The position numbers were made by a program, and so were the translations under genes. Below, one piece after another: positions 38,747 to 56,511 of a stretch of 57,008 nucleotides of DNA. The stretch spans positions 1 through 57,008 of IMG/VR virus record IMGVR_UViG_3300044611_000653, one strand, 5' to 3'. Position 1 is the stretch's first letter, and every line of letters starts with the position of its first letter. This DNA comes from a virus. Below the pieces are notes generated by a model. That model was not told the DNA's origin. It saw nothing but the letters and a program-made list of their open reading frames with translations, and did not search any database.

Positions 38747-39736
38747 ATGAATATTTCATTTTCTACGCCTATAGTTAACCTAAGAACTAATAATGGATAC
38801 GGATATGCAAGTAAAAATATAGTAAAATCTTTAAATAATCTAGGACACTTCACTCCATTTCAAGATCCAAAATCTAAATTACAATTAAATTTTTCACAAC
38901 CATCACATTTTAAATTACATAAAAATCAATATCAAATTAGTTATACACCATGGGAATCTACCGTAATTCCAGAAGATTGGAAATATTATATGGATGCATG
39001 CGATGAAGTTTGGGTAACTTCAGATTGGTGTGCAAATGTATTTGAAGATAATGGCTTTAAGGTTTCTAATGTATACCCACACGGCATTGATCCTATGTGG
39101 ATACCAAATAGAAGAAAAGAAAACGGTGTAATTAAATTTTTGCATATAGGAGAACCAGCACCAAGAAAAGCTGGACAAATGGTACTAGATGCATTTGGTA
39201 GCTTGTTTGGAAATAAAGAAGGATATTCGTTAACCATTAAAGCAGATCAAATAAATACAACTAGAGTATATAACAATTATTTAGATAAAAATATTTTAGG
39301 CGTTCCAGATAAATATTACAACAACGTGTCTATAATTACAGATGTTTTGAATGACGAAGAACTTGTAAGCCTGTATCAGTCTCATGATGTTTTAGTATAT
39401 CCAAGCTATGGAGAAGGATTTGGATTTATTCCACTTCAAGCACTAGCAACTGGCATGCCAACAATTTGTACAAGCGGCTGGGCACATTATGAAAAATATT
39501 TAGGGCCATTAAAATTAAAATCAGAACTAATAGATTCACCTTGGCCATTCCCACACGAAGGAAAAGTTTTTGAGCCAAACTATCAACACCTACTTGAACT
39601 TATGAGAGACGTTTCAATAAACTTTAATGCATATTCAGGATATTATTTTGCTCAGTCAACTAAAATACATAAAGATTATAATTGGAAACAGTTGACCAAG
39701 AATTCATTTGATAAAATTTTAAAAAAACTTAATTAA
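38747..39736 (+). CDS. GT-B glycosyltransferase (GT4-like)
   Basis: 329 residues. C-terminal domain with the nucleotide-sugar motif VYPSYGEGFGFIPLQALATG (E-x7-E type) and KFLHIGEPAPRKAGQMVLDA at the inter-domain hinge. NGYGYASKNIVKSL at the N-terminus fits the acceptor domain. Likely transfers a sugar to a phage structural protein, DNA or host glycan. AGAAAGAATTT precedes the start; divergent from the transglycosylase operon. Confidence 0.87.
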   Translation: MNISFSTPIVNLRTNNGYGYASKNIVKSLNNLGHFTPFQDPKSKLQLNFSQPSHFKLHKNQYQISYTPWESTVIPEDWKYYMDACDEVWVTSDWCANVFEDNGFKVSNVYPHGIDPMWIPNRRKENGVIKFLHIGEPAPRKAGQMVLDAFGSLFGNKEGYSLTIKADQINTTRVYNNYLDKNILGVPDKYYNNVSIITDVLNDEELVSLYQSHDVLVYPSYGEGFGFIPLQALATGMPTICTSGWAHYEKYLGPLKLKSELIDSPWPFPHEGKVFEPNYQHLLELMRDVSINFNAYSGYYFAQSTKIHKDYNWKQLTKNSFDKILKKLN

Positions 39737-39822: not shown

Positions 39823-41757
39823 ATGTCATTTACAATTGAAAACCCATATGAAAATTTTATTGCATTATCTAGATATGCAAAGTGGGTTCCAGAAGAAAAC
39901 CGCAGAGAAAATTGGCAAGAAACTGTAGATAGATATTTTTCTTTTATGTTAGATCATTTATTTAAAGAGTATTCATACGAACCTTCGGCAAAATTAATAT
40001 CAGAATTAAAACAAGCAGTTCTAGACAGAAACGTTATGCCATCAATGAGAGCAGTAATGACTTCTGGCCCAGCATTAGAAAGAGATCATGTTGCTGGATA
40101 CAATTGTTCATTTGTTCCAGTTGATTCACCACGTTCATTTGATGAAACAATGTATATTCTTATGTGTGGTACAGGTGTAGGATTCTCTGTTGAGTATAAG
40201 TATATTAATAAACTTCCTGCCGTCCCAGAATCTTTAGAAAAATCAACTACAGTAATTACAGTAGAAGATTCAAAACAAGGTTGGGCAAAAGCATATCGTG
40301 AACTATTAGCATTACTTTGGTCTGGACAGATTCCAGCAGTTGATGTAACTAAACTTAGACCCGCAGGCGCAAGACTTAAAACTATGGGCGGAAGATCTTC
40401 TGGACCACAGCCATTAGTAAATCTTTTTGATTTTACAATTAAGATATTTAAAAATGCAGTTGGAAGAAACTTAAAGCCAATTGAATGTCACGACCTTATG
40501 TGTAAAATTGGAGAAGTTGTTGTAGTTGGTGGCGTTCGTAGATCTGCAATGATATCTCTTTCTAATATTAATGATATTGAAATGGCAGCAGCTAAGTCAG
40601 GTAATTGGTGGGAGAACAGTCCACAAAGAGCATTGTCAAATAACTCAGTTGCTTATTCTAGAAAACCAGAAATGGCACAATTTATAGCAGAATGGAAAAA
40701 TCTTTATGACTCAAAATCTGGAGAACGTGGAATTTATAATGTTGCCGCTGCACAAGCACAAGCAGCTAGATATGGAAGGCGGGATCCTGAAATACACTAT
40801 GGGACAAACCCTTGCTCAGAAATTATTTTGCGTCCTTATCAGTTTTGTAACCTTTCAGAAGTCGTATTACGTGAAAAGGATACAGTTGATGATGTTAAAA
40901 ATAAAGTAAGACTTGCCACTATTTTAGGAACGTGGCAATCTACATTAACAGACTTTAAATATTTGCGTAAAATTTGGAAAGATAATACAGAAGAAGAAAG
41001 ACTGCTTGGCGTATCTTTAACAGGACAATTTGGACATAAATTCTTTTCTGGACAAGAAGGTTTAGACAAACTAGAGCAAACTCTTGTATCTCTCCGTGAA
41101 TCAGCAAGAAAGGTAAATGCTGAAGAGGCTAAAAAAATTGGAATTCAAGAGTCAGCAGCAATTACTTGCGTTAAGCCATCAGGTACAGTCTCGCAACTAG
41201 TCGGCGTTTCTTCTGGAATGCATCCGTGGCACTCTAAATATTATATTAGAACAGTTCGTGGATCAAAGACAGACCCAATCTCTGTTTTCTTAAAAGAAGT
41301 GGGCATACCAGTCGAAGATGATGTCATGAAACCAACAGAAACATATGTATTTTCTTTTCCAATAAAATCTCCAGACGATGCAATTGTTAGAAATGATTTA
41401 ACCGCTATAGATCATTTAAACACATGGCTTGTTTATCAAAGAGCATGGTGTGAGCATAAGCCTTCAATTACTGTGTCAGTAAAAGAAGACGAATGGATGG
41501 AAGTTGGCGCTTGGGTATACAAAAACTTTGATGAAGTTTCTGGAATCTCATTCTTGCCTTCTTTTGATCATTCATACAAGCAAGCACCATATCAGGAAAT
41601 AACAAAAAAAGAATACGAAGACTTGTTGTCTAAGATGCCAAAGTCTATTCGTTGGGAAGATTTATCTTTTTATGAAACAGAAGATGGAACTTCTACAAAC
41701 GCCACGCTTGCATGTACGTCTGACGGAAATTGTGAACTTGTAGATATCTCTGCATAG
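39823..41757 (+). CDS. nrdJ: Class II (B12-dependent) ribonucleoside-triphosphate reductase
   Basis: 644 residues, monomeric RTPR type. Cysteine pattern: Cys95 and Cys342 as the redox pair, Cys331 in NPCSEI as the thiyl radical site (spacing 11 to Cys342 as in Lactobacillus RTPR), and a C-terminal Cys631/Cys637 shuttle pair. It makes dNTPs using adenosylcobalamin and thioredoxin, so no oxygen or separate radical subunit is needed. Related enzymes occur in many actinophages. The leader is 50-60 nt after TGGTACACT; I see no cobalamin riboswitch. Confidence 0.93.
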   Translation: MSFTIENPYENFIALSRYAKWVPEENRRENWQETVDRYFSFMLDHLFKEYSYEPSAKLISELKQAVLDRNVMPSMRAVMTSGPALERDHVAGYNCSFVPVDSPRSFDETMYILMCGTGVGFSVEYKYINKLPAVPESLEKSTTVITVEDSKQGWAKAYRELLALLWSGQIPAVDVTKLRPAGARLKTMGGRSSGPQPLVNLFDFTIKIFKNAVGRNLKPIECHDLMCKIGEVVVVGGVRRSAMISLSNINDIEMAAAKSGNWWENSPQRALSNNSVAYSRKPEMAQFIAEWKNLYDSKSGERGIYNVAAAQAQAARYGRRDPEIHYGTNPCSEIILRPYQFCNLSEVVLREKDTVDDVKNKVRLATILGTWQSTLTDFKYLRKIWKDNTEEERLLGVSLTGQFGHKFFSGQEGLDKLEQTLVSLRESARKVNAEEAKKIGIQESAAITCVKPSGTVSQLVGVSSGMHPWHSKYYIRTVRGSKTDPISVFLKEVGIPVEDDVMKPTETYVFSFPIKSPDDAIVRNDLTAIDHLNTWLVYQRAWCEHKPSITVSVKEDEWMEVGAWVYKNFDEVSGISFLPSFDHSYKQAPYQEITKKEYEDLLSKMPKSIRWEDLSFYETEDGTSTNATLACTSDGNCELVDISA

Positions 41758-47394: not shown

Positions 47395-49860
47395 ATGTCA
47401 ACAGTAAGAATTCAAGTAAGACGAGGAACAGCATCAGAATGGACCTCAGCAAATCCTACACTAGCCGCAGGTGAACTAGGTGTTGAAACAGACACCAGAA
47501 AAATTAAGGTCGGATCTGGAAGCACAGCATGGACCAGCCTTTCATACATTGCAGCAGACTCACCAGCAATTTCAGAAATTGCACAAGATGCAATTGATGC
47601 AGCCCTTTCAATGGGAGCAGGTCTTACAAAATCTTACAATGACAACGGTAATACAATTTCTATTAACATCGATGATTCTGTTGTTGCACTTAAAACTTAT
47701 GTTGACTCCCAAGTAGGCTCATTACAAAATACTGTAACTCAAGACTACGTACCAGTAGAAGATGTTGGAAACCCTGGCGGACCAGCAAAATTAGATGTTG
47801 ATGGAAATTTATTAATTCCTAAATCAAGCATTATAATTGAAGGATCTACAGCTAATGAATTTGAAACAACACTTACAGCAACAAATCCAACAGCAGATCG
47901 AACTATTTCTTTGCCAGATAATTCAGGAACCGTAGCTTTAGTAGGAGATATTGCAGAACTTTCACAAGATGCAATTAATGACTCTATTTCTGCAGGATTT
48001 GGTATAACAAAATCTTATAACGACAATACAAATACAATAGAATTAGTCGTAGACACCTCAGAAGTTGCAACTGTAGTAGCACTAAACTCAGTAGCTTCTT
48101 CTTTAAATATACATAAAGCAGCGCATGTTGCCACAACATCTGCCTTAGCAGCAACTTATACAGCAGGATCTGCTGATTTAGGAAATGGAACTGGAATTGG
48201 TGCAACATTAACAATGAACTCAAATGGAACATTATCAATAGATGATGTTTTATTAGTTGCAGGATATAGAGTTGTTGTAAAAGATCAAGCAAATAACATT
48301 CATAATGGTATTTATGAGGTTACAAATGCTGGATCAGCATCCGCCCCAGTAGTTTTAACTAGAGCTCAAGACTACAATAATTCAAATGAACAATTACCTC
48401 TTGATGTAGAACAGGGCGATGTTATCTACGTAATAAGCGGAACAGAAAATGGCCTAAAGCAATTTTCTCAAATATATACAGGAACAAATACAGATGGATC
48501 TGTTAGAATTGGTACAGATGCAATAGACTTTACACAAATATCAGGAACATCAAGCTTTAATGTAGGAGATGGAATACTTAAAACAGATAACACTATTCGT
48601 GTAGATACAGAATTTGTTTTAACTACAGCAGAAGCAGATACAACATATTTGAAAATTTTAGATGCAGGTACAACATACTTAAGCCAAGCAGATGCTGCAT
48701 CAGATTATTTAACAATAACTGGTGCAGAAACAACTTATTTAACCCAAGCAAATGCTGGCACAACATATTTAACTCAAGCAAATGCAACAAGTACTTATTT
48801 TGCAAAAAATACAAATGAAATTGGCAATGCAAACATTGCATCTAATGCTGGTATTCAGGCTACAAAAATATCTGGAACTGCAATTACAGGAGCAGATACA
48901 GCAACAGTAACAAATACAATGCTTGCAGGATCTATTGCTAATGATAAGCTTTCTAATTCAACAATTTCAGGAAAAGCACTTGGAACTAATTTAGATGCAT
49001 TAACAATTGGAACTGGTTTAACTGGTACATCTTATAATGGTTCATCACCAGTAACAGTTGAAATAGATTCAACAGTTGCTACTTTAACTGGCTCACAAAC
49101 ACTTACAAATAAAACAATTACTGCACCTCTTGGATTAGTAAAAGGAGATGTCGGCCTTGGTAACGTAGATAACACTACAGATGCTAATAAGCCAGTGTCA
49201 TCAGCAACACAGACAGCTCTTGATCTAAAGGCACCGTTGGCCTCACCAGCACTTACTGGAGTCCCAACAGCCCCTACAGCAGCAGCAGCAACTAACACTA
49301 CGCAAATTGCTACTACAGAGTTTGTTCGTGCAGAAGTTGCAGCACTTGTAAATAGTGCAGGTTCAACACTTGATACTCTTGGAGAAATTGCAACCGCTCT
49401 TGGAAATGATGCAAACTTAAGCACAACACTTACAAACAGCATTGCATTAAAAGCCCCACTTGATTCACCAACATTTACTGGAACAGTAACAGTTGCAGCA
49501 GCAGGTGTAGCATTTACAGATGGAACTCAAACTAAAGAAGGCGTTCCTTCAAGAACTCCAATTATTTCAAAAACTGCAAACTACACACTTTCAGCAGCAT
49601 CTGAAAGAGATTCATTAATTGAAGTAAACTCTACAGATCCTGTAACAATTACAATTCCAACAAATTCAGCAGTTGCTTTCCCAACAGGAACAACACTAGA
49701 TATACTTGGAGTTAATACAGGATTAATTACAATTGCAGGAGATACAGGCGTAACAGTAAATGCTACTCCTGGATTAAAACTACGTACTCAATGGTCATCA
49801 TGTACATTATTCAAGAGAGCAGAAAACTCTTGGGTAGTATACGGCGACCTGAAGTCATAA
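47395..49860 (+). CDS. Large tail fibre / receptor-binding protein
   Basis: 821 residues. N-terminal IQVRRGTASEWTSANPTLAA followed by GELGVETDTRKIKVGSGSTAW is the classic phage fibre attachment module. Middle: Ala/Thr beta repeats, including a SQADAASDYLTITGAETTYL series near 420-470 with TTYLTQANA units. C-terminal head about 740-821. It shares PLASPALTGVPTAPT with the 45320 protein. TATAAT 47367-47372 and AAGGGG RBS. Longest gene in the window; probable host-range determinant. Confidence 0.88.
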   Translation: MSTVRIQVRRGTASEWTSANPTLAAGELGVETDTRKIKVGSGSTAWTSLSYIAADSPAISEIAQDAIDAALSMGAGLTKSYNDNGNTISINIDDSVVALKTYVDSQVGSLQNTVTQDYVPVEDVGNPGGPAKLDVDGNLLIPKSSIIIEGSTANEFETTLTATNPTADRTISLPDNSGTVALVGDIAELSQDAINDSISAGFGITKSYNDNTNTIELVVDTSEVATVVALNSVASSLNIHKAAHVATTSALAATYTAGSADLGNGTGIGATLTMNSNGTLSIDDVLLVAGYRVVVKDQANNIHNGIYEVTNAGSASAPVVLTRAQDYNNSNEQLPLDVEQGDVIYVISGTENGLKQFSQIYTGTNTDGSVRIGTDAIDFTQISGTSSFNVGDGILKTDNTIRVDTEFVLTTAEADTTYLKILDAGTTYLSQADAASDYLTITGAETTYLTQANAGTTYLTQANATSTYFAKNTNEIGNANIASNAGIQATKISGTAITGADTATVTNTMLAGSIANDKLSNSTISGKALGTNLDALTIGTGLTGTSYNGSSPVTVEIDSTVATLTGSQTLTNKTITAPLGLVKGDVGLGNVDNTTDANKPVSSATQTALDLKAPLASPALTGVPTAPTAAAATNTTQIATTEFVRAEVAALVNSAGSTLDTLGEIATALGNDANLSTTLTNSIALKAPLDSPTFTGTVTVAAAGVAFTDGTQTKEGVPSRTPIISKTANYTLSAASERDSLIEVNSTDPVTITIPTNSAVAFPTGTTLDILGVNTGLITIAGDTGVTVNATPGLKLRTQWSSCTLFKRAENSWVVYGDLKS

Positions 49861-49872
49861 GGAGAATTATAA

Positions 49873-51210
49873 ATGAGTAAAAGAGCTGGTAGAAAATCAC
49901 AGTCATCAAATGACTTTTTAGAGCCAAAACCCGTAGAAAATTTAACTGTAACAGATGTTGGAACAAGTAGGACGTATAACGATGGCGCAGCAGATCTTTC
50001 TTGGGAGCTACCAGCTGGATCACCGCCAGCAACTTCTTACTCAATAACAACAAATCCTAGCTCATCAACTTTTACAACATCAAATACATCATATAGAGTA
50101 GAAGGATTATCATCTGACACCTCTTATGTATTTTTAGTAACTGGATCTAATGCTGCTGGAACATCTGCTGCAACATCATCTAGTTCGACATTAATCACTA
50201 CTGTACCAGCACAACCTGTTTCTGTAAGCGCATCTTCACCAACTGTAAATCAAGATAGCGTTTCCTGGTCATCAGGAGGAACTGGCGGTAAGACAATTAC
50301 AAGCTATACCGTTGTTTCTTCAGATGGACCTGAGTACACAAATCAAACTTCACCAGCAACAATTTCAGAAACTGGAGGAACATCACAGACCTATACAATT
50401 TATGCAATAAATGCTAATGGAACGTCTTTGGGAGCAACCACCGCTTCTGTAACTACAACGGCACCGTTCTTCCCACCGTTCTTCCCGTACTTCCCACCGT
50501 TCTTCCCGTACTTCCCACCGTTCTTCCCGTACTTCCCACCGTTTTTCCCATTCTTCCCGTTCTTCCCACCGTTCTTCCCGTACTTCCCACCGTTCTTCCC
50601 GTACTTCCCACCGTTTTTCCCATTCTTCCCGTTCTTCCCACCGTTCTTCCCACCAAGATTTGGACCGTTCTTCCCACCAGCATTTGGACCTTACTTCGTC
50701 AGATGCGTAGATGGAGACACTTTAATATTAACAAGCGAAGGATTAAAACCTGCTAGAGATATTAAGATGGGTGACAAGTTGCTAACAGTAGACGCTAAAG
50801 CAATCTCTGAAGAGTCTAACTTTGCACCACTTCAAATAAATGTCAATGATTTGCAAATAGGAAATCTTGTACACACTGAAGTGACAAATATAATAGCCTC
50901 AGATAAAGTAGATAGAGTTTACTTTAACGATGACGTAACAGCTCAATTTACTGAAACTCACCCAATATTCGTAAAGCGAAATAATGAATATCGTGTAGTA
51001 GAAGCAGGCACAGTGCAAGAAGGAGATTCTTTAATAAAAATTAATCTAGAGTCTCTAAAAGAAACACTGTCTATGCCAGAGGTGATATCAGAAATAGAGG
51101 TTACAAAGGTAAATAAAGTAACTTTAGATTCACCAAAAGATGTATACACATTTAGTTGTGATTCATATAACTGGTATTTTGCTGGTAATATATTAACTCA
51201 CAATAAATAG
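49873..51210 (+). CDS. Fn3 protein with Phe/Pro/Tyr repeat and C-terminal Hint (intein-like) domain
   Basis: 445 residues in four parts. Basic N-terminus (1-20); two fibronectin-III domains (about 20-110 and 112-197); an extraordinary FFPPFFPYFPPFFP-type repeat (198-276) of Phe, Pro and Tyr only, with a few Gly/Arg/Ala at the end; then a Hint domain from Cys278 (CVDGDTLILTSEGLKPARDI) with the block-B motif TETH (Thr360, His363) and a terminal His443-Asn444-Lys445. An N-S acyl shift at Cys278 could cleave or ligate the repeat; Lys after Asn argues against splicing. RBS AAGGAG. Directly upstream of the hydroxylase cluster. Confidence 0.88.
   Translation: MSKRAGRKSQSSNDFLEPKPVENLTVTDVGTSRTYNDGAADLSWELPAGSPPATSYSITTNPSSSTFTTSNTSYRVEGLSSDTSYVFLVTGSNAAGTSAATSSSSTLITTVPAQPVSVSASSPTVNQDSVSWSSGGTGGKTITSYTVVSSDGPEYTNQTSPATISETGGTSQTYTIYAINANGTSLGATTASVTTTAPFFPPFFPYFPPFFPYFPPFFPYFPPFFPFFPFFPPFFPYFPPFFPYFPPFFPFFPFFPPFFPPRFGPFFPPAFGPYFVRCVDGDTLILTSEGLKPARDIKMGDKLLTVDAKAISEESNFAPLQINVNDLQIGNLVHTEVTNIIASDKVDRVYFNDDVTAQFTETHPIFVKRNNEYRVVEAGTVQEGDSLIKINLESLKETLSMPEVISEIEVTKVNKVTLDSPKDVYTFSCDSYNWYFAGNILTHNK
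50464..50700 (+). repeat. Phe/Pro/Tyr-coding tandem repeat
   Basis: Near-perfect nucleotide repeats of CCGTTCTTCCCACCG and TTCCCGTACTTCCC units, GC-rich relative to the surroundings and written with almost one codon per amino acid (TTC, CCG, CCA, TAC), a sign of recent expansion by slippage or recombination. Confidence 0.85.
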
Positions 51211-51299: not shown

Positions 51300-52019
51300 A
51301 TGTCAGATATTTATGATATAGACAGCAATCCTTGGTTTACAAAAGATAGGTCGGAATCAACTTCTTTTAGAGTAGAAAGATCTTTTGGAAATATTAAAGT
51401 TTTAAATCCAGGAATTGGATTAAATATTTATCAATCAGCTATTACAAGCGATGTTTGTGAAACATCAATTAAAACATTAGAAGATAAATTAACTAACGGA
51501 TCACTTTATAAATGGTCAGAGGCACAAGTTACAACTTCCGACAAGCCAGTAAAATCTGCAAGAGACTGTGTTGATTTTAAATTCAAGCCAGAAAACCTTG
51601 GACAAAGAAATGAAAACAATGCAGAACTTTTAGATATGCATAAATCAATATATGATGTATTAAAAAAATGTATAGATGATTATTGTCAATACTGGGGAAT
51701 TAATGTAATATATTATGAAGCATTTAACTTTGTAAAATACACAAGCCCAGGACAACACTTTAGAGTTCATGCAGATCATGGACCGCATTATAATTGTACA
51801 GTATCTGCTGTAATTTATTTAAACGATAACTACGAAGGCGGAGAAATAGCATTTCCAAGATTAGACAAATTAGTATACAAACCAAAACGTGGTGATGTAG
51901 TGATATTCCCATCAAACTATATATATGAACACTCTTCAGAACCAATGATTTCTGGGGATAAGTATTCAGTTGTAGTTATGATGGATATTAATCTATTAGG
52001 ACATAAGGAGAACAAATGA
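51300..52019 (+). CDS. 2OG-Fe(II) oxygenase, prolyl-4-hydroxylase type
   Basis: 239 residues. Iron ligands His157-x-Asp159 (VHADHG) and His211 (YEHSS); core IYLNDNYEGGEIAF; Lys221 at the 2OG position (GDKYSVVVM). DCVDFKFKPENLG and YYEAFNFVKY are shared with the next gene, so the two are paralogues. First gene of the operon after the Hint protein. Confidence 0.9.
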   Translation: MSDIYDIDSNPWFTKDRSESTSFRVERSFGNIKVLNPGIGLNIYQSAITSDVCETSIKTLEDKLTNGSLYKWSEAQVTTSDKPVKSARDCVDFKFKPENLGQRNENNAELLDMHKSIYDVLKKCIDDYCQYWGINVIYYEAFNFVKYTSPGQHFRVHADHGPHYNCTVSAVIYLNDNYEGGEIAFPRLDKLVYKPKRGDVVIFPSNYIYEHSSEPMISGDKYSVVVMMDINLLGHKENK

Positions 52020-52675
52020 CAAATACTCAGACATGGTCTAGCGCAGAAGATTTAGGTTCTGGAATTTGGGTGTACAGAGATGTTTTAACAAAAGATTTAA
52101 ATTTAATTGAAAGATTAGAAAAAGAACTAGATGGCAAGTCTCCAAATTACACCTGGCAACCAGCATATGTTGGATATCAAGAAAGAATGCCAGAGTATAG
52201 AGAATGCGTTGATTTTAAATTTAAAAAAACAGACATAGAGCAAGACAAATCAGAAGTTTCTTTATCTTTACAGCAAATATGGCAAGACTGCTACGACAAA
52301 CAAGCACCAGCAGTTCAAGATTATTGTAAAAAACATAATATACATAAACTGCAATACTGGGAAGCTTTTAATTTTATTAAATATGTGCCTGGTCATCACT
52401 TTATGGAACATCATGATCATGGGTTCTCCTATAACTGTACAGTTTCATTGGTAGGGTATTTAAATGACGACTATGAAGGTGGAGAGTTATATTTTAGATT
52501 ACAAAATTTAAATATTAAGCCAAAAACAGGAGATTTATACATATTCCCATCTACATATATGTATCCTCATCAAGCTAAAGTAGTTAAATCAGGAACTAAA
52601 TATTCTTTGGTTACAATGTTAGATTATAGTGCTAAATTCCATACTCAGGAAATGTATCAAGATACTGGCAACTAG
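52016..52675 (+). CDS. 2OG-Fe(II) oxygenase, prolyl-4-hydroxylase type (paralogue)
   Basis: 219 residues, ATGA overlap with the gene before. His132-x-Asp134 (MEHHDHG), His185 (YPHQAK), Lys195 (GTKYSLVTML). Shares ECVDFKFK and YWEAFNFIKY with the preceding protein, and like it uses Lys instead of Arg for 2OG. Substrate unknown, probably different because the N-terminal regions diverge. Confidence 0.9.
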   Translation: MTNTQTWSSAEDLGSGIWVYRDVLTKDLNLIERLEKELDGKSPNYTWQPAYVGYQERMPEYRECVDFKFKKTDIEQDKSEVSLSLQQIWQDCYDKQAPAVQDYCKKHNIHKLQYWEAFNFIKYVPGHHFMEHHDHGFSYNCTVSLVGYLNDDYEGGELYFRLQNLNIKPKTGDLYIFPSTYMYPHQAKVVKSGTKYSLVTMLDYSAKFHTQEMYQDTGN

Positions 52676-53394
52676 TGTCAATACTAAAAGCGTACAAGAC
52701 TAATCCAGACTCATTTATTATAGAGCCTCTTTCTATAAAAAGAGATTGGATGGAAAACACACCTGATAAACATGCTTATCATTGTTTTCCTGTCACTATG
52801 GCAAATTCAATTGGCTGGACACTCTCTTGTCCAGTTGATTTAAAATTTATATGGAATGGAATAACAGATACAACACCAGATACTGTTAAAATATTGTCTG
52901 GAGAGCAATACGGATATACTGGTAGAGGACAAGGAACAGTTAGTCTTATGACTGGTTTAATATTTAAATCAAAACAAGACGTCAGTTTATTAACTATAAA
53001 TTGTTTAAATTACTTTTATGAAGACTTTGAAGTAATGGCTTCATTAATTAGTACATCATTTTATCCAAACGAATTACCATTAGCAATAAAAGCAAAAACT
53101 GCAAATAAAGAAATTATAATAAAAGCTGGCACTCCAATAGCAACAATTATTCCAATTTCATTAACTAAATTAAAGGATGAGTTTATAGAAATAGAAAATT
53201 TTATACACAATCCAGAATATGCTCAAAAACAAAAAAGTTATGGAGATGCTGCTCAAGAAATAAACAAATCTGGGCAGTGGACAGACTGGTATAGAGATGC
53301 TGTAGATGAAAATAAAAATTCAGTTGGATCACACGAAGTTAAATCATTAAAACTAAAAGTAATAGATAATACCTTGGATAAAAATAATGAATAA
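52675..53394 (+). CDS. DUF6065-like protein (GTG start)
   Basis: 239 residues; shares one base with the previous stop. IIEPLSIKRDWMENTPDKHAYHCFP and GWTLSCPVDLKFIWNGITDT fit the DUF6065 pattern, and KAGTPIATIIPIS closes the core. No catalytic motif is recognised. Its placement between hydroxylases suggests a substrate, chaperone or partner. Confidence 0.7.
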   Translation: MSILKAYKTNPDSFIIEPLSIKRDWMENTPDKHAYHCFPVTMANSIGWTLSCPVDLKFIWNGITDTTPDTVKILSGEQYGYTGRGQGTVSLMTGLIFKSKQDVSLLTINCLNYFYEDFEVMASLISTSFYPNELPLAIKAKTANKEIIIKAGTPIATIIPISLTKLKDEFIEIENFIHNPEYAQKQKSYGDAAQEINKSGQWTDWYRDAVDENKNSVGSHEVKSLKLKVIDNTLDKNNE

Positions 53395-54115
53395 TAAAAT
53401 TAAATTTGTTTCTAATAGACCATGGCTAAACAAAGATAGTATATCAAAACCCTCCCCATCAATTAAAGAAATACCAGAATGGTTTAGGAAAGCAGATAGA
53501 TTTGCAATAAATCCATTAACAAAAGATTACTGGAAAGGTCCAGACGGAGGCAAAATACCAACCTGGAAAGCGTGTCCAGCAATATTTGATATTCTTGGAA
53601 CAGGATATGTTTTAAAAACTCCATGCGATGTTAAATTTTATTTAAAAAATAATAAAATGTCAGTAGAAATTAAAGAAGAAAAATATAAAGACTTTTGTTC
53701 TGAAAGACAACCAATGCCGCAATTTGTTCATCCGCAGGGATATTATAAAGAACATTTTGCATGGTATCCAGACTGGGCAATAGAACTTCCAGAAGGATAT
53801 AGTGCATTATATACAACCCCATTTAATAGATTTGACTTGCCATTTCTTATGTCTGCAGGAATTGTAGATAATGATAAAATAAATTTACCAGGTACAATGC
53901 CCTTTTTTATTATAAAAGGATTTGAAGGCGTGATTCCAGCAGGAACACCTTATGCACAAATAATTCCATTTAAAAGAGAAGATTGGCACTCAGAAGTTTT
54001 TATAGAAAATCCAAATAGTCTATATAAAAAAAATCAAAATAACAGCGATAAATATAGAGTAAAAGATGGTGGAGTTTATAAAAATGAAGTTTGGTCTAAA
54101 AGAAACTATGAATAG
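53387..54115 (+). CDS. DUF6065-related protein
   Basis: 242 residues, overlapping the previous gene by 8 nt. ACPAIFDILGTGYVLKTPCDV, VKFYLKNN and VIPAGTPYAQIIPFKRE parallel the same positions in the 52675 protein, so the pair are distant paralogues. Similar proteins with KSCPPF-like motifs occur in T4-like marine phages. Function unknown. Confidence 0.65.
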   Translation: MNNKIKFVSNRPWLNKDSISKPSPSIKEIPEWFRKADRFAINPLTKDYWKGPDGGKIPTWKACPAIFDILGTGYVLKTPCDVKFYLKNNKMSVEIKEEKYKDFCSERQPMPQFVHPQGYYKEHFAWYPDWAIELPEGYSALYTTPFNRFDLPFLMSAGIVDNDKINLPGTMPFFIIKGFEGVIPAGTPYAQIIPFKREDWHSEVFIENPNSLYKKNQNNSDKYRVKDGGVYKNEVWSKRNYE

Positions 54116-54132
54116 GATGGTATAATAAATAT

Positions 54133-54816
54133 ATGGATAGAGAATTAGCTAATGATACAAAAAATTATAACAATAGGATTTCTATAACACCATCTGGATT
54201 TTTTGGATCTTCTCCAGATATGATTCAAGCAAGAGAAAATTTTATGACACCAGAAGAGTTAGAATTCCTATCTAATTGTGCAAGAAATATATCAGAGTGG
54301 GACGTCACACAAACACACTATAATGAAAATGGAACAATTATTTATGATTCATCTTATTGGGATAATAGGGTAGCGTCTAGACCTATTTTAGATAAAGCGG
54401 ACCCAGAAATTTCAAATGTTATTGGAAGAATGGTTGATAGATTAAAAATTGAAGTAGATAACTTTTTTAAAGTCGATGCGTTTCCCACCAGCCCAGCAAT
54501 AGTAAGGTGGATGCCAGGATATAAACAACTCCCTCATGCTGATAAAGAACTTCATGAGGGATTAGACGCAGGAAAACCAAATGATTTTCCGTACTATGAC
54601 TTATCTGGATTATTTTATTTAAATGATGATTATGAGGGAGGGGAACTATATTTTCCACAGCATAACATACAATTTAAACCAAAACCAGGAGCAGCATATT
54701 TTTTTCCTGGAGATATGAATTATATTCATGGTGTTACTGAAATTACAAGTGGCATTAGATATGTAATCCCATTTTTTTGGACAATATTAAAGCACACTGG
54801 AGAAAAACAACTATGA
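54133..54816 (+). CDS. 2OG-Fe(II) oxygenase, prolyl-4-hydroxylase type
   Basis: 227 residues. His135-x-Asp137 (LPHADKE), His199 (YIHGVTEITSG), Arg209 (IRYVIPFFW); core FYLNDDYEGGELYFP. Leaderless: TGGTATAAT (54121-54126) plus six bases, so it can be expressed independently of the 51.3-kb promoter. ATGA overlap with the next gene. Confidence 0.92.
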   Translation: MDRELANDTKNYNNRISITPSGFFGSSPDMIQARENFMTPEELEFLSNCARNISEWDVTQTHYNENGTIIYDSSYWDNRVASRPILDKADPEISNVIGRMVDRLKIEVDNFFKVDAFPTSPAIVRWMPGYKQLPHADKELHEGLDAGKPNDFPYYDLSGLFYLNDDYEGGELYFPQHNIQFKPKPGAAYFFPGDMNYIHGVTEITSGIRYVIPFFWTILKHTGEKQL

Positions 54817-55634
54817 GCAAAGAGATAGAGTTTATCTCTATATATCCTAAAATAAATGTTTATAAAAATGTTTTTAATGATGTTGATAGTTTTTTAGAAA
54901 AATCAAAAAAATTAACTAGTTGGGATTCATGGTATACATTTGGGGAAATGACTGCATTAGCAGAAAAAGTTTTAGAATTTGATAATTTTCCAACAAGAAA
55001 TGAATTTATAAATTCAAGAGATTGGGAAATTAATGAAAATGAGTTTGAAAAACAAATTAAAAAAACATTATCTATAGAGGTGGGAGAAATTTTTTATGAT
55101 GTAACCAGTCATTTTCTAAAAATGTACCCAGAAACCTCTTTACCAAATTACTATAAACAATCAGCTTCAATTAATAAATATATTAAAAATGGTGAAGGCG
55201 TATCTAAAAATTATTTTATGAATTACCATACAGATTTCGTACAAGCAGAAAAAGAGGTCCCAGGTAATAAATTTGGCATAACTACTACTTTTTACCTTAA
55301 CGATGACTATGAAGATGGCGAAATTTGTTTTAAGATTAATGATGAGTTTATTTCTTATAAACCAAAAAAGGGAGACGTAATTGTTTTCCCTTCAAGACCA
55401 CCGTACTACCACGGAGTTAAAAAAGCTTTTGGAAACGATAGATATATGATAAGATCTTTTTGGCAATATAAATATGAAGGTTCAAAAGAATGGCTAGATA
55501 ATCAAAAAAAATATGGAAAAGACTTATGGGCACAGATGGAAAAAGAAAGAATAAAAGAAGAAGCTTTTGATAATCAAATAGATTCAGAATCTGTAAATAG
55601 ATTTATGGGAAAAGATAATGGTAAATATTTATGA
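54813..55634 (+). CDS. 2OG-Fe(II) oxygenase, prolyl-4-hydroxylase type
   Basis: 273 residues from the ATG at 54813 (ATGA overlap; the in-frame ATG at 54777 lies inside the previous gene). His139-x-Asp141 (NYHTDFV), His200 (YYHGVKK), Arg210 (NDRYMIRSFW); core FYLNDDYEDGEICF. Helical extension of about 60 residues at the C-terminus. Coupled to the CDGSH gene by an ATGA overlap (55631). Confidence 0.9.
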   Translation: MSKEIEFISIYPKINVYKNVFNDVDSFLEKSKKLTSWDSWYTFGEMTALAEKVLEFDNFPTRNEFINSRDWEINENEFEKQIKKTLSIEVGEIFYDVTSHFLKMYPETSLPNYYKQSASINKYIKNGEGVSKNYFMNYHTDFVQAEKEVPGNKFGITTTFYLNDDYEDGEICFKINDEFISYKPKKGDVIVFPSRPPYYHGVKKAFGNDRYMIRSFWQYKYEGSKEWLDNQKKYGKDLWAQMEKERIKEEAFDNQIDSESVNRFMGKDNGKYL

Positions 55635-55750
55635 AACAATGTACTTGTGGAAGGTCTAATGCGTATCCATATTGCGATGGTACACATAAATTAAAAAAAA
55701 TACAAAAAGAAGAAAATTTAGAGATTAAAGCAAAAGAGGAAAAAGAATGA
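55631..55750 (+). CDS. CDGSH-type iron-sulfur mini-protein
   Basis: 39 residues. Cys4-Thr-Cys6-Gly-Arg-Ser9-Asn-Ala-Tyr-Pro13-Tyr-Cys15-Asp-Gly-Thr-His19 fits the CDGSH consensus C-x-C-x2-(S/T)-x3-P-x-C-D-G-(S/A/T)-H exactly, so the three Cys and one His should bind a [2Fe-2S] cluster. A charged helical tail follows. Overlaps both flanking oxygenase genes by four bases. Probably handles electrons or iron for them; phage examples are not familiar to me. Confidence 0.85.
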   Translation: MKQCTCGRSNAYPYCDGTHKLKKIQKEENLEIKAKEEKE

Positions 55751-56511
55751 AAAATGGAATTATAGAACATATAGATAAATCTAATTTTATTTATTTGCAA
55801 AACGAAGAAGTTCCTGTTGATAAAATGGGAGTCCTTGGTGTTAAAGTAAATACAATAGTAGAAATTCCTAATTTTATAGATCCTCAAATTGTTCCAAAAA
55901 TGATAAACTTTTTTGAAAATTGTGATGTTGACTGGGGAGATATTGCATTTTATGGATCATCTGGAAAAGGAATTAAAACAGATGCAGAAACAATGAAAAA
56001 ATTTGATCTCCCAGAAGGATTTTTTGATAAATTAAAAGATAAATATCAAGAAGCAGTTCAAACAGTATTTGAAAGAGAAGTTAGGGCAAATACATCTCAT
56101 GCACAAAAATGGGACATTGGAGGATTTGCAAGCCCGCACTCAGATAATTCAGATAATGATGGAAAACCAAATGCTTTTGAAATAAATAAATATGTAGGAA
56201 TATTGTATCTTAATGACGACTATGAGGGCGGAGAACTATACTTTTGTGATAAAGATAATAATATGGAAACGTATTTATCGTTTAAACCAAATGTTTATTC
56301 TTATTATGTTTTTCCTGGTGGTTATGAAAATATTCACGGAGTATCAGAAATAACTAAAGGTACAAGATACACCATGGTTTCATTCTGGGACTACGCAGAT
56401 TCAGTTTATGATCAAGAAACATTAGATCGATGGGAAGAAGAAGAAAAAGAAGTAAGAAGGCAACAAGCAATTCAAAAAGAAGAATGGCTAAAAGGAAACA
56501 AATATGCTTAA
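55747..56511 (+). CDS. 2OG-Fe(II) oxygenase, prolyl-4-hydroxylase type
   Basis: 254 residues, with an ATGA overlap. His131-x-Asp133 (SPHSDNS), His197 (NIHGVSEITKG), Arg207 (TRYTMVSFW); core YLNDDYEGGELYFCDKD. DNDGKPNAFEINKYV and FWDYADSVYD match the 11212 protein's DGTPNAW and SYDYADSVYN. It overlaps the last gene by 8 nt. Confidence 0.92.
   Translation: MKNGIIEHIDKSNFIYLQNEEVPVDKMGVLGVKVNTIVEIPNFIDPQIVPKMINFFENCDVDWGDIAFYGSSGKGIKTDAETMKKFDLPEGFFDKLKDKYQEAVQTVFEREVRANTSHAQKWDIGGFASPHSDNSDNDGKPNAFEINKYVGILYLNDDYEGGELYFCDKDNNMETYLSFKPNVYSYYVFPGGYENIHGVSEITKGTRYTMVSFWDYADSVYDQETLDRWEEEEKEVRRQQAIQKEEWLKGNKYA

Follow-up and report, generated by a model that had tools for sequence, protein, structure and literature searches.

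Aromatic/proline tail stalks, a bacterial intein-like Hint domain and a neighbouring cluster of prolyl-hydroxylase-like oxygenases in uncultured freshwater phages

Type A bacterial intein-like (BIL) domains end in His-Asn, carry no nucleophile at the following (+1) position and, according to passages of two PubMed Central (PMC) papers, mostly cleave and sometimes ligate via a free amine (PMC4031507; PMC7765530). An isopeptide bond with a Lys side chain is described, in a part of PMC8616854, for BIL2 of the Tetrahymena BUBL1 locus (PDB 6y75, 6tmm), and the hedgehog Hog-Hint domain (PDB 1at0) undergoes C-terminal autoprocessing. Among phages, the collagen-like tail proteins of NCTB, pEa_SNUABM_33 and Afa-NA1, encoded among tail genes, combine a repetitive stalk and an Ig-type region with a near-terminal Hint domain, and, according to a passage of PMC10202952, Nanopelagicales phages have a variable island where collagen-like proteins lie next to a tail fibre. 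The gene investigated here lies at 49873..51210 of the viral record IMGVR_UViG_3300044611_000653 (positions 1 to 57,008; this stretch of 57,008 nucleotides is referred to as the window) and encodes a protein of 445 residues in which fibronectin type III (Fn3) domains, a stalk of aromatic residues and proline, and a Hint domain follow one another. The anatomy of this protein, its predicted fold, its conservation and its gene neighbourhood are established here by computation. The stronger lead lies outside the gene itself, on which the initial annotation had concentrated, and is the occurrence of proline-rich stalks beside clusters of prolyl-hydroxylase-like genes. The best explanation overall, to which we give even chances, is that of a modular tail appendage with a self-trimming BIL-like Hint domain and a stalk hydroxylated by the neighbouring oxygenases.

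The initial annotation had described an open reading frame (ORF) with Fn3, a Phe/Pro/Tyr repeat, Cys278, a TETH motif and a terminal HNK, and all of these features, together with the position of the ORF, are confirmed from the sequence. The gene and the other features given in the form start..end lie on the plus strand. A basic N-terminal segment with an NDFLEP motif, the probable attachment site (49873..49932), precedes two Fn3 domains whose boundaries are approximate (49933..50463). Pfam marks one of them (fn3, residues 36-103; 1.7e-10, 41.4 bits against a cut-off of 25) and the second is visible in the AlphaFold2 model; Foldseek matches this region to Fn3 tandems, and Pfam detects two Fn3 stretches in the relative L020. 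The stalk (50464..50703) occupies the 80 residues 198-277 (F36, P32, Y6, R2, G2, A1 and V1) and ends with Arg277, directly before Cys278. With two Gly in 80 residues it is not a Gly-X-Y collagen repeat. In the whole-protein AlphaFold2 model, built from 19 aligned sequences, the Fn3 pair and most of the Hint domain are modelled, with ten-residue blocks mostly at 79-94 and some at 51-75, and the stalk, at 35-44, is predicted to be disordered.

Chance or artefact as the source of the repeat is ruled out, since its DNA pattern matches the window four times against 0.00 expected and since its composition exceeds that of a control. At 61 further Hint loci, which yield 48 unique proteins, the stretch of 40 residues ahead of the Hint Cys is always at least 45% F, Y, W, H or P (median 68%), compared with a mean of 14% and a maximum of 45% in 5647 windows from 16 other ORFs of the window. 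A minus-strand ORF at 50453-50683 was discarded, being the repeat read on the opposite strand. Codon use in the stalk (50464-50703) is inverted relative to 12 neighbouring genes: TTC encodes 32 of its 36 Phe residues (18 of 165 in the neighbours) and CCG encodes 17 of its 32 Pro residues (8 of 177), for which T-run avoidance or translational demand could be the explanation. The length of the repeat varies between proteins that are otherwise identical (80 versus 56, 70 versus 84 and 80 versus 45 residues), and these differences may be due to slippage or assembly collapse.

The Hint domain (residues 278-445; 50704..51207) includes Cys278, the presumed nucleophile of an N-S acyl shift (50704..50706), the block-B motif TETH at residues 360-363 (50950..50961) and the terminal His-Asn-Lys at residues 443-445 (51199..51207), which is followed by the stop codons TAG TAA. 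When this domain was modelled alone with 37 aligned sequences, the mean predicted local distance difference test (pLDDT) score was 92.7, and Foldseek ranked the BIL domain 2lwy of Clostridium thermocellum first (template modelling score by target 0.80), followed by hedgehog 1at0 (0.76) and BIL2 6y75 (0.77). In all, 59 PDB structures matched at E ≤0.001, and each of the 50 listed is a BIL, hedgehog or intein structure, which places the domain in the HINT superfamily. The best match of the Hint sequence profile is likewise 2lwy (2.5e-14). By fold and by sequence profile the domain is nearest to the BIL domains, and the Hint fold that the initial annotation had proposed, subject to structure prediction, is predicted with high confidence. 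It is type A BIL-like, having a terminal His-Asn with Lys rather than Cys, Ser or Thr at +1, and none of 57 related Hints bearing His-Asn has one of these three residues at +1. A Hint pattern ending in HNK matched eight stretches.

Several differences from the known systems are apparent. In contrast to the type A BIL domain of C. thermocellum, the phage Hints sit at the end of a repetitive stalk, mostly have one residue past the Asn, usually Lys, and commonly have Gln in place of the block-B His. BIL2 has the same fold and a Lys near its C-terminal junction; it differs in being flanked by ubiquitin-like domains. The hedgehog domain shares the fold and Cys1, but the phage protein retains the terminal His-Asn and stops one residue beyond it without a Hog sterol-recognition region, and thus has no lipid- or sterol-binding extension. 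Neither the +1 nucleophile nor the C-extein of an intein is present, the stop coming right after Lys445. A class 3 intein was also considered and rejected, as the conserved block-F Cys (45 of 61 Hints) falls, by reading of the alignment, about three residues beyond position F:4. Unlike the window protein, the tail proteins of NCTB, pEa_SNUABM_33 and Afa-NA1 possess a Gly-X-Y stalk and 7 to 13 residues after His-Asn, and their Hints are 23-26% identical to that of the window over the alignment. The Hint-ending collagen-like tail protein of phage NCTB is directly followed by a second, free-standing Hint-like protein (L212:3480-3941), which has 153 residues and ends in HNKVD.

The distribution of the stalk is revealing of how its parts are combined. 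Relatives of the window Hint with the repeat were found at 40 loci in viral contigs, two of which (L040 and L041) start inside the Hint. Nine contigs carry two copies, with Hint starts 8.0-8.7 kb apart. The head of the second copy is of PASTA type, and in four proteins of this kind Pfam PASTA scored 7.1e-6 to 1.8e-4, above the cut-off in three of them. A profile of the Hint recovered 122 relatives from viral contigs and 80 of them were retained; 61 of these were extracted, the other 19 being loci already included, and yielded 48 unique proteins, each with an aromatic stalk just ahead of the Hint Cys. The stalk is spelled in different ways (PFFPPFFPY, FGFTP, APPGFF, HFPP and IPAPFFPP). The stalk DNA pattern by itself matched at least 119 stretches of viral contigs, as did a scan with the N-terminal motif, and the family looks abundant in uncultured freshwater phages. 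Among the matches listed, the latter scan gave 102 unique proteins, and the 91 complete ones comprise 83 with the F/P/Y repeat, seven with another Phe-rich stalk and one chance match. In the scan for the FFP repeat, which did not select for the motif, NDFLxP is present in 37 of 79 proteins complete at both ends.

The C-terminus is the variable part. Among the matches listed, 104 unique FFP-stalk proteins are complete at this end, where 49 have a Cys-rich tip, 26 a tail of at most 20 residues with fewer than 4 Cys, 13 something different and 16 a region of at least 140 residues. The last group consists of 12 Cys-bearing Hints and four Hint-like domains without the Cys, which are 19-20% identical to the window Hint and hence weak matches. 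Since the chain ends just after the stalk in 26 of the 104, a Hint-less stalk is viable, and since the Hint is one of several tips, stalk and Hint are separable; with a Cys-bearing Hint in 12 of 104, the idea that the repeat is a feature of Hint proteins only was ruled out. The Cys-rich tips (L117, L135, L165, L109 and others) have a median length of 28 residues and 6 Cys, the stalk itself being Cys-free, and are possible knotted or metal-binding receptor tips. The family is a large one of uncultured freshwater siphoviruses, and its members begin with an Fn3 or PASTA head, continue into an aromatic/proline stalk that is variously spelled and finish with a C-terminus that can be exchanged. The shared NDFLxP N-terminus and the varying C-termini suggest that the N-terminus faces the virion, so that a C-terminal thioester would face outward. 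The same parts occur in another modular build in L191, where a PASTA-like head is combined with two short FFP stalks, Cys-rich segments and several linkers of Thr-Pro repeats; in L151, which has an S74-like motif, the ORF stops 46 residues past the stalk.

Searches of phage records by tblastn found no match at 1e-5 to the whole window protein and none at E 1 to its Fn3 part (50,697 records, low-complexity filter on), and the Hint matched 53 records at E ≤1, the best at 1e-4 and all below 60% identity. The sole stalk-pattern match in genome contigs, L211, was judged spurious, being a Phe/Ser-rich ORF without Fn3 or a regular repeat. No description of the stalk family was found among the open-licence PMC papers listed by literature searches.

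Downstream of the stalk gene lies a cluster of five 2-oxoglutarate- and Fe(II)-dependent (2OG-Fe(II)) oxygenase genes, all of which match PF13640: 51300..52019 (3.4e-13), 52016..52675 (2.1e-12), 54133..54816 (4e-8), 54777..55634 (3.6e-9) and 55747..56511 (5.8e-9). The four that were aligned are prolyl-hydroxylase-like and have the HxD...H motif together with Lys (the first two) or Arg (54133..54816 and 55747..56511). Profile matches are led by prolyl 3-hydroxylase 1 (3.7e-11) and prolyl 4-hydroxylases (8e-9), followed by PiuC and lysyl hydroxylase LH3, and prolyl 3- and 4-hydroxylases (PDB 8k0e, 3itq, 5hv0) are the closest solved relatives. These known systems differ from that of the phage, in which the stalk lacks Gly-X-Y, several enzymes share one cluster and the substrate is a candidate only. 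The cluster also contains a DUF6065 protein (52675..53394; PF19541, 3.2e-28) and a protein at 53387-54115 that has no Pfam match and has tblastn relatives in 84 of the 119 FFP-scan loci listed.

Across 20 long contigs, 99 of 142 PF13640 matches lie within 10 kb downstream of a stalk gene, compared with 15.2 expected under uniform placement, the stalk centres for this count having been placed by hand from locus coordinates. Two stalk genes bracket seven oxygenases in contig G001 and six in G002. When genes with at least 4.5 kb of downstream sequence are grouped by stalk type, as rows that are not independent because many of the phages are close kin, the mean number of oxygenases within 5 kb downstream is 3.83 for FFP (146 genes), 4.21 for APPGFF (14) and 4 for HFPP (3), versus 0.78 for FGFTP (9) and 0.5 for YSFTP (2), whose stalks are proline-poor. 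Most of the related phages with proline-poor stalks have either no oxygenase there or a single one. Exceptions run against this pattern: 16 FFP genes have no oxygenase within 5 kb, nor do the APPGFF loci L270 and L275, and the FGFTP locus L083 has three. Nine of the 15 oxygenase-less FFP genes listed are second, PASTA-headed copies, and such copies in G001 and G002 lie beyond the cluster. Nine further FGFTP or YSFTP records comprise four without any PF13640 match and five with 1 to 5. In one FGFTP phage the interval separating its two stalk genes contains, instead of an oxygenase cluster, a family 25 glycosyltransferase (8.8e-18) and a weak Anp1-like match (0.0023), both within L241:8558-9983.

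Shared descent was considered as a source of this pattern. In a portal tree of 19 contigs and phage BillNye, proline-poor stalks with 0-1 adjacent oxygenases occur in three places, among proline-rich contigs of that half of the tree, which have 6-9 oxygenases; the support values are 89/91, 80/89 and 96/97. The tree leaves out four of 23 records, which lacked a portal match, and the long BillNye branch was flagged. This placement suggests that the association between stalk and oxygenases does not stem from shared descent alone; of the three joins at which stalk types mix, two have moderate support.

The way in which viruses exploit prolyl 4-hydroxylase is described as cryptic in a passage of PMC9301287, EGLN3-like oxygenases are reported across phages in part of PMC12774648, and a statement in PMC3368898 holds that bacteria and viruses are without collagen prolyl hydroxylases. 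It is our tentative proposal, held at somewhat less than even chances, that these phages build a hydroxyproline-bearing aromatic stalk by means of a dedicated prolyl-hydroxylase cluster, which would make it a phage counterpart of collagen without Gly-X-Y.

The explanation that we prefer combines these observations as follows. The gene would encode a modular tail appendage of a freshwater siphovirus, attached to the tail probably by its conserved N-terminus and Fn3 pair, with the disordered stalk presumably projecting outward. The C-terminal Hint would fold, probably undergo an N-S acyl shift at Cys278 and so leave the stalk, whose mature form would end near residue 277, like those of the many relatives that are Hint-less from the start. 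Hydrolysis would be the likeliest fate of the acyl end, and transfer to an amine, for instance on the +1 residue Lys445, a less likely one. The neighbouring oxygenases would probably hydroxylate the stalk, most likely at its prolines, as their association with the stalk genes suggests. To judge from sequence and model, the most probable mechanism is that the type A BIL-like Hint trims itself off, and the conserved +1 Lys is the sole candidate nucleophile visible in the sequence.

Conservation of the catalytic residues bears on this explanation in both directions. In the 43-locus clade of the window, Cys1, TETH and His-Asn are invariant in 13 of 14 aligned rows, the fourteenth (L042) having SLEQ. 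Of 61 unique Hints, all have Cys1, which is by construction as the selecting patterns contained Cys, and 57 have His-Asn. A single residue follows His-Asn in 49 of the 61; Lys is at +1 in 50 of the 57 with His-Asn and in 52 of the 61, including two that have lost the Asn and retained the Lys (L223, L265), and at +2 in seven more. The self-processing Fn3-repeat-Hint unit put forward in the initial annotation is upheld in its predicted fold and conserved motifs, which are complete in the window clade, and not in its unity, the stalk being free of the Hint in most relatives. Several further points weigh against the explanation. The block-B residue is His in 24 of the 61 Hints and Gln in 37, indicating that a Hint can persist without the full motif set; His-Asn is lost in L143 and L153, and both Cys1 and His-Asn in L148 and L162. 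Some of these Hints may thus not process. Compensation for a missing block-B His by a bulky -1 residue, an idea taken from PMC6333167, was considered and rejected, since the 37 Gln Hints show it in no consistent way, with varied -1 residues (Gly 11, Gln 6, Pro 6, Lys 4, Ala 3 and Trp 3; Ser, Leu, Asn and Phe 1 each). As for hydroxylation, 298 phage records contain a match at 1e-5 to the oxygenase at 51300-52019, and 241 of these are named Synechococcus phages and none Streptomyces phages. Such enzymes therefore also occur where no stalk of this kind was found, and the target of the cluster could be the tail fibres or something different.

The losses of catalytic residues favour an alternative in which the Hint does not process: an ancient BIL would have been domesticated to serve as a C-terminal knob, closing off the stalk and perhaps binding the host. 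Swappable tips agree with this and we regard it as unlikely but deserving of serious attention; the presence of His-Asn in 57 of 61 Hints and of the complete Cys1, TETH and His-Asn set in the window clade is hard to explain without chemistry. A covalent anchor, as proposed in the initial annotation, in which the thioester at the stalk end is captured by a nucleophile on the host surface or on a different virion protein, would make use of the product of Hint chemistry at an end that probably points outward, and hedgehog is the second Foldseek match. This possibility is rather improbable, given that no partner-binding extension follows the Hint, that most FFP stalks are Hint-less and that the acceptor is hypothetical.

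The prevalence of Lys at +1 or +2, its retention in the two Hints without Asn and the isopeptide ascribed to BIL2 would fit a reaction in which attack on the thioester by the +1 Lys attaches this residue to the end of the stalk, after which Asn cyclisation releases the Hint. One added Lys offers no clear gain, the residue may just stabilise the fold and the BIL2 Lys sits in a flanking domain, and we consider such capping a long shot. The combination of a hydroxylated stalk with, in some lineages, a BIL that transfers the stalk C-terminus to an amine, possibly its own +1 Lys, is very improbable. A degenerate intein surviving as a selfish remnant is disfavoured and barely credible: Intein_splicing is the best Hint-type Pfam model (6.4e-8), but its 33.0 bits fall below the cut-off of 35.8, no endonuclease domain is present, one residue follows His-Asn in most of the Hints, +1 is never Cys, Ser or Thr in the 57, and the domain occurs after different stalks and heads and as two paralogues in nine contigs.

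That the gene encodes a tail protein, as the initial annotation held, agrees with its position next to tail-fibre genes (PHROGs), including one with an Mtd_N domain directly upstream (47395..49860; PF18454, 6.5e-16). The related 76.9-kb contig G001 has matches to a portal, a head protease, an adaptor and a tape measure of 2126 residues, which point to a siphovirus-like genome. Its portal is 56-59% identical to those of Streptomyces phages among the ten matches listed of 335 records. The gene order of BillNye (glycosyltransferase, ribonucleotide reductase, endolysin, two hypothetical genes, portal) is partly shared by the window, where a glycosyltransferase at 38747 and a ribonucleotide reductase at 39823 are followed by fibres and the stalk gene. 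These two observations hint at a possible relatedness to Stanwilliamsviridae, the window stopping before the portal, and the host is probably an actinobacterium to judge from them. Neither stalk nor oxygenase was found in cultured Streptomyces relatives in the phage-record searches, and the capsid family Gp23 had no match in 20 records in a search without a positive control. Elsewhere in the window, a 30-base tandem repeat (569-725; 5.2 copies, 91% matches) lies inside an ORF at 294-1508 that has no PHROG match at 1e-5.

As the conserved Lys past His-Asn suggests, phages may possess a natural BIL reaction that is directed to Lys. The proline-rich stalks next to the oxygenase clusters are a candidate substrate of viral prolyl hydroxylases, and a hydroxylated stalk, if true, would provide the substrate for this group of phage 2OG-Fe(II) oxygenases.
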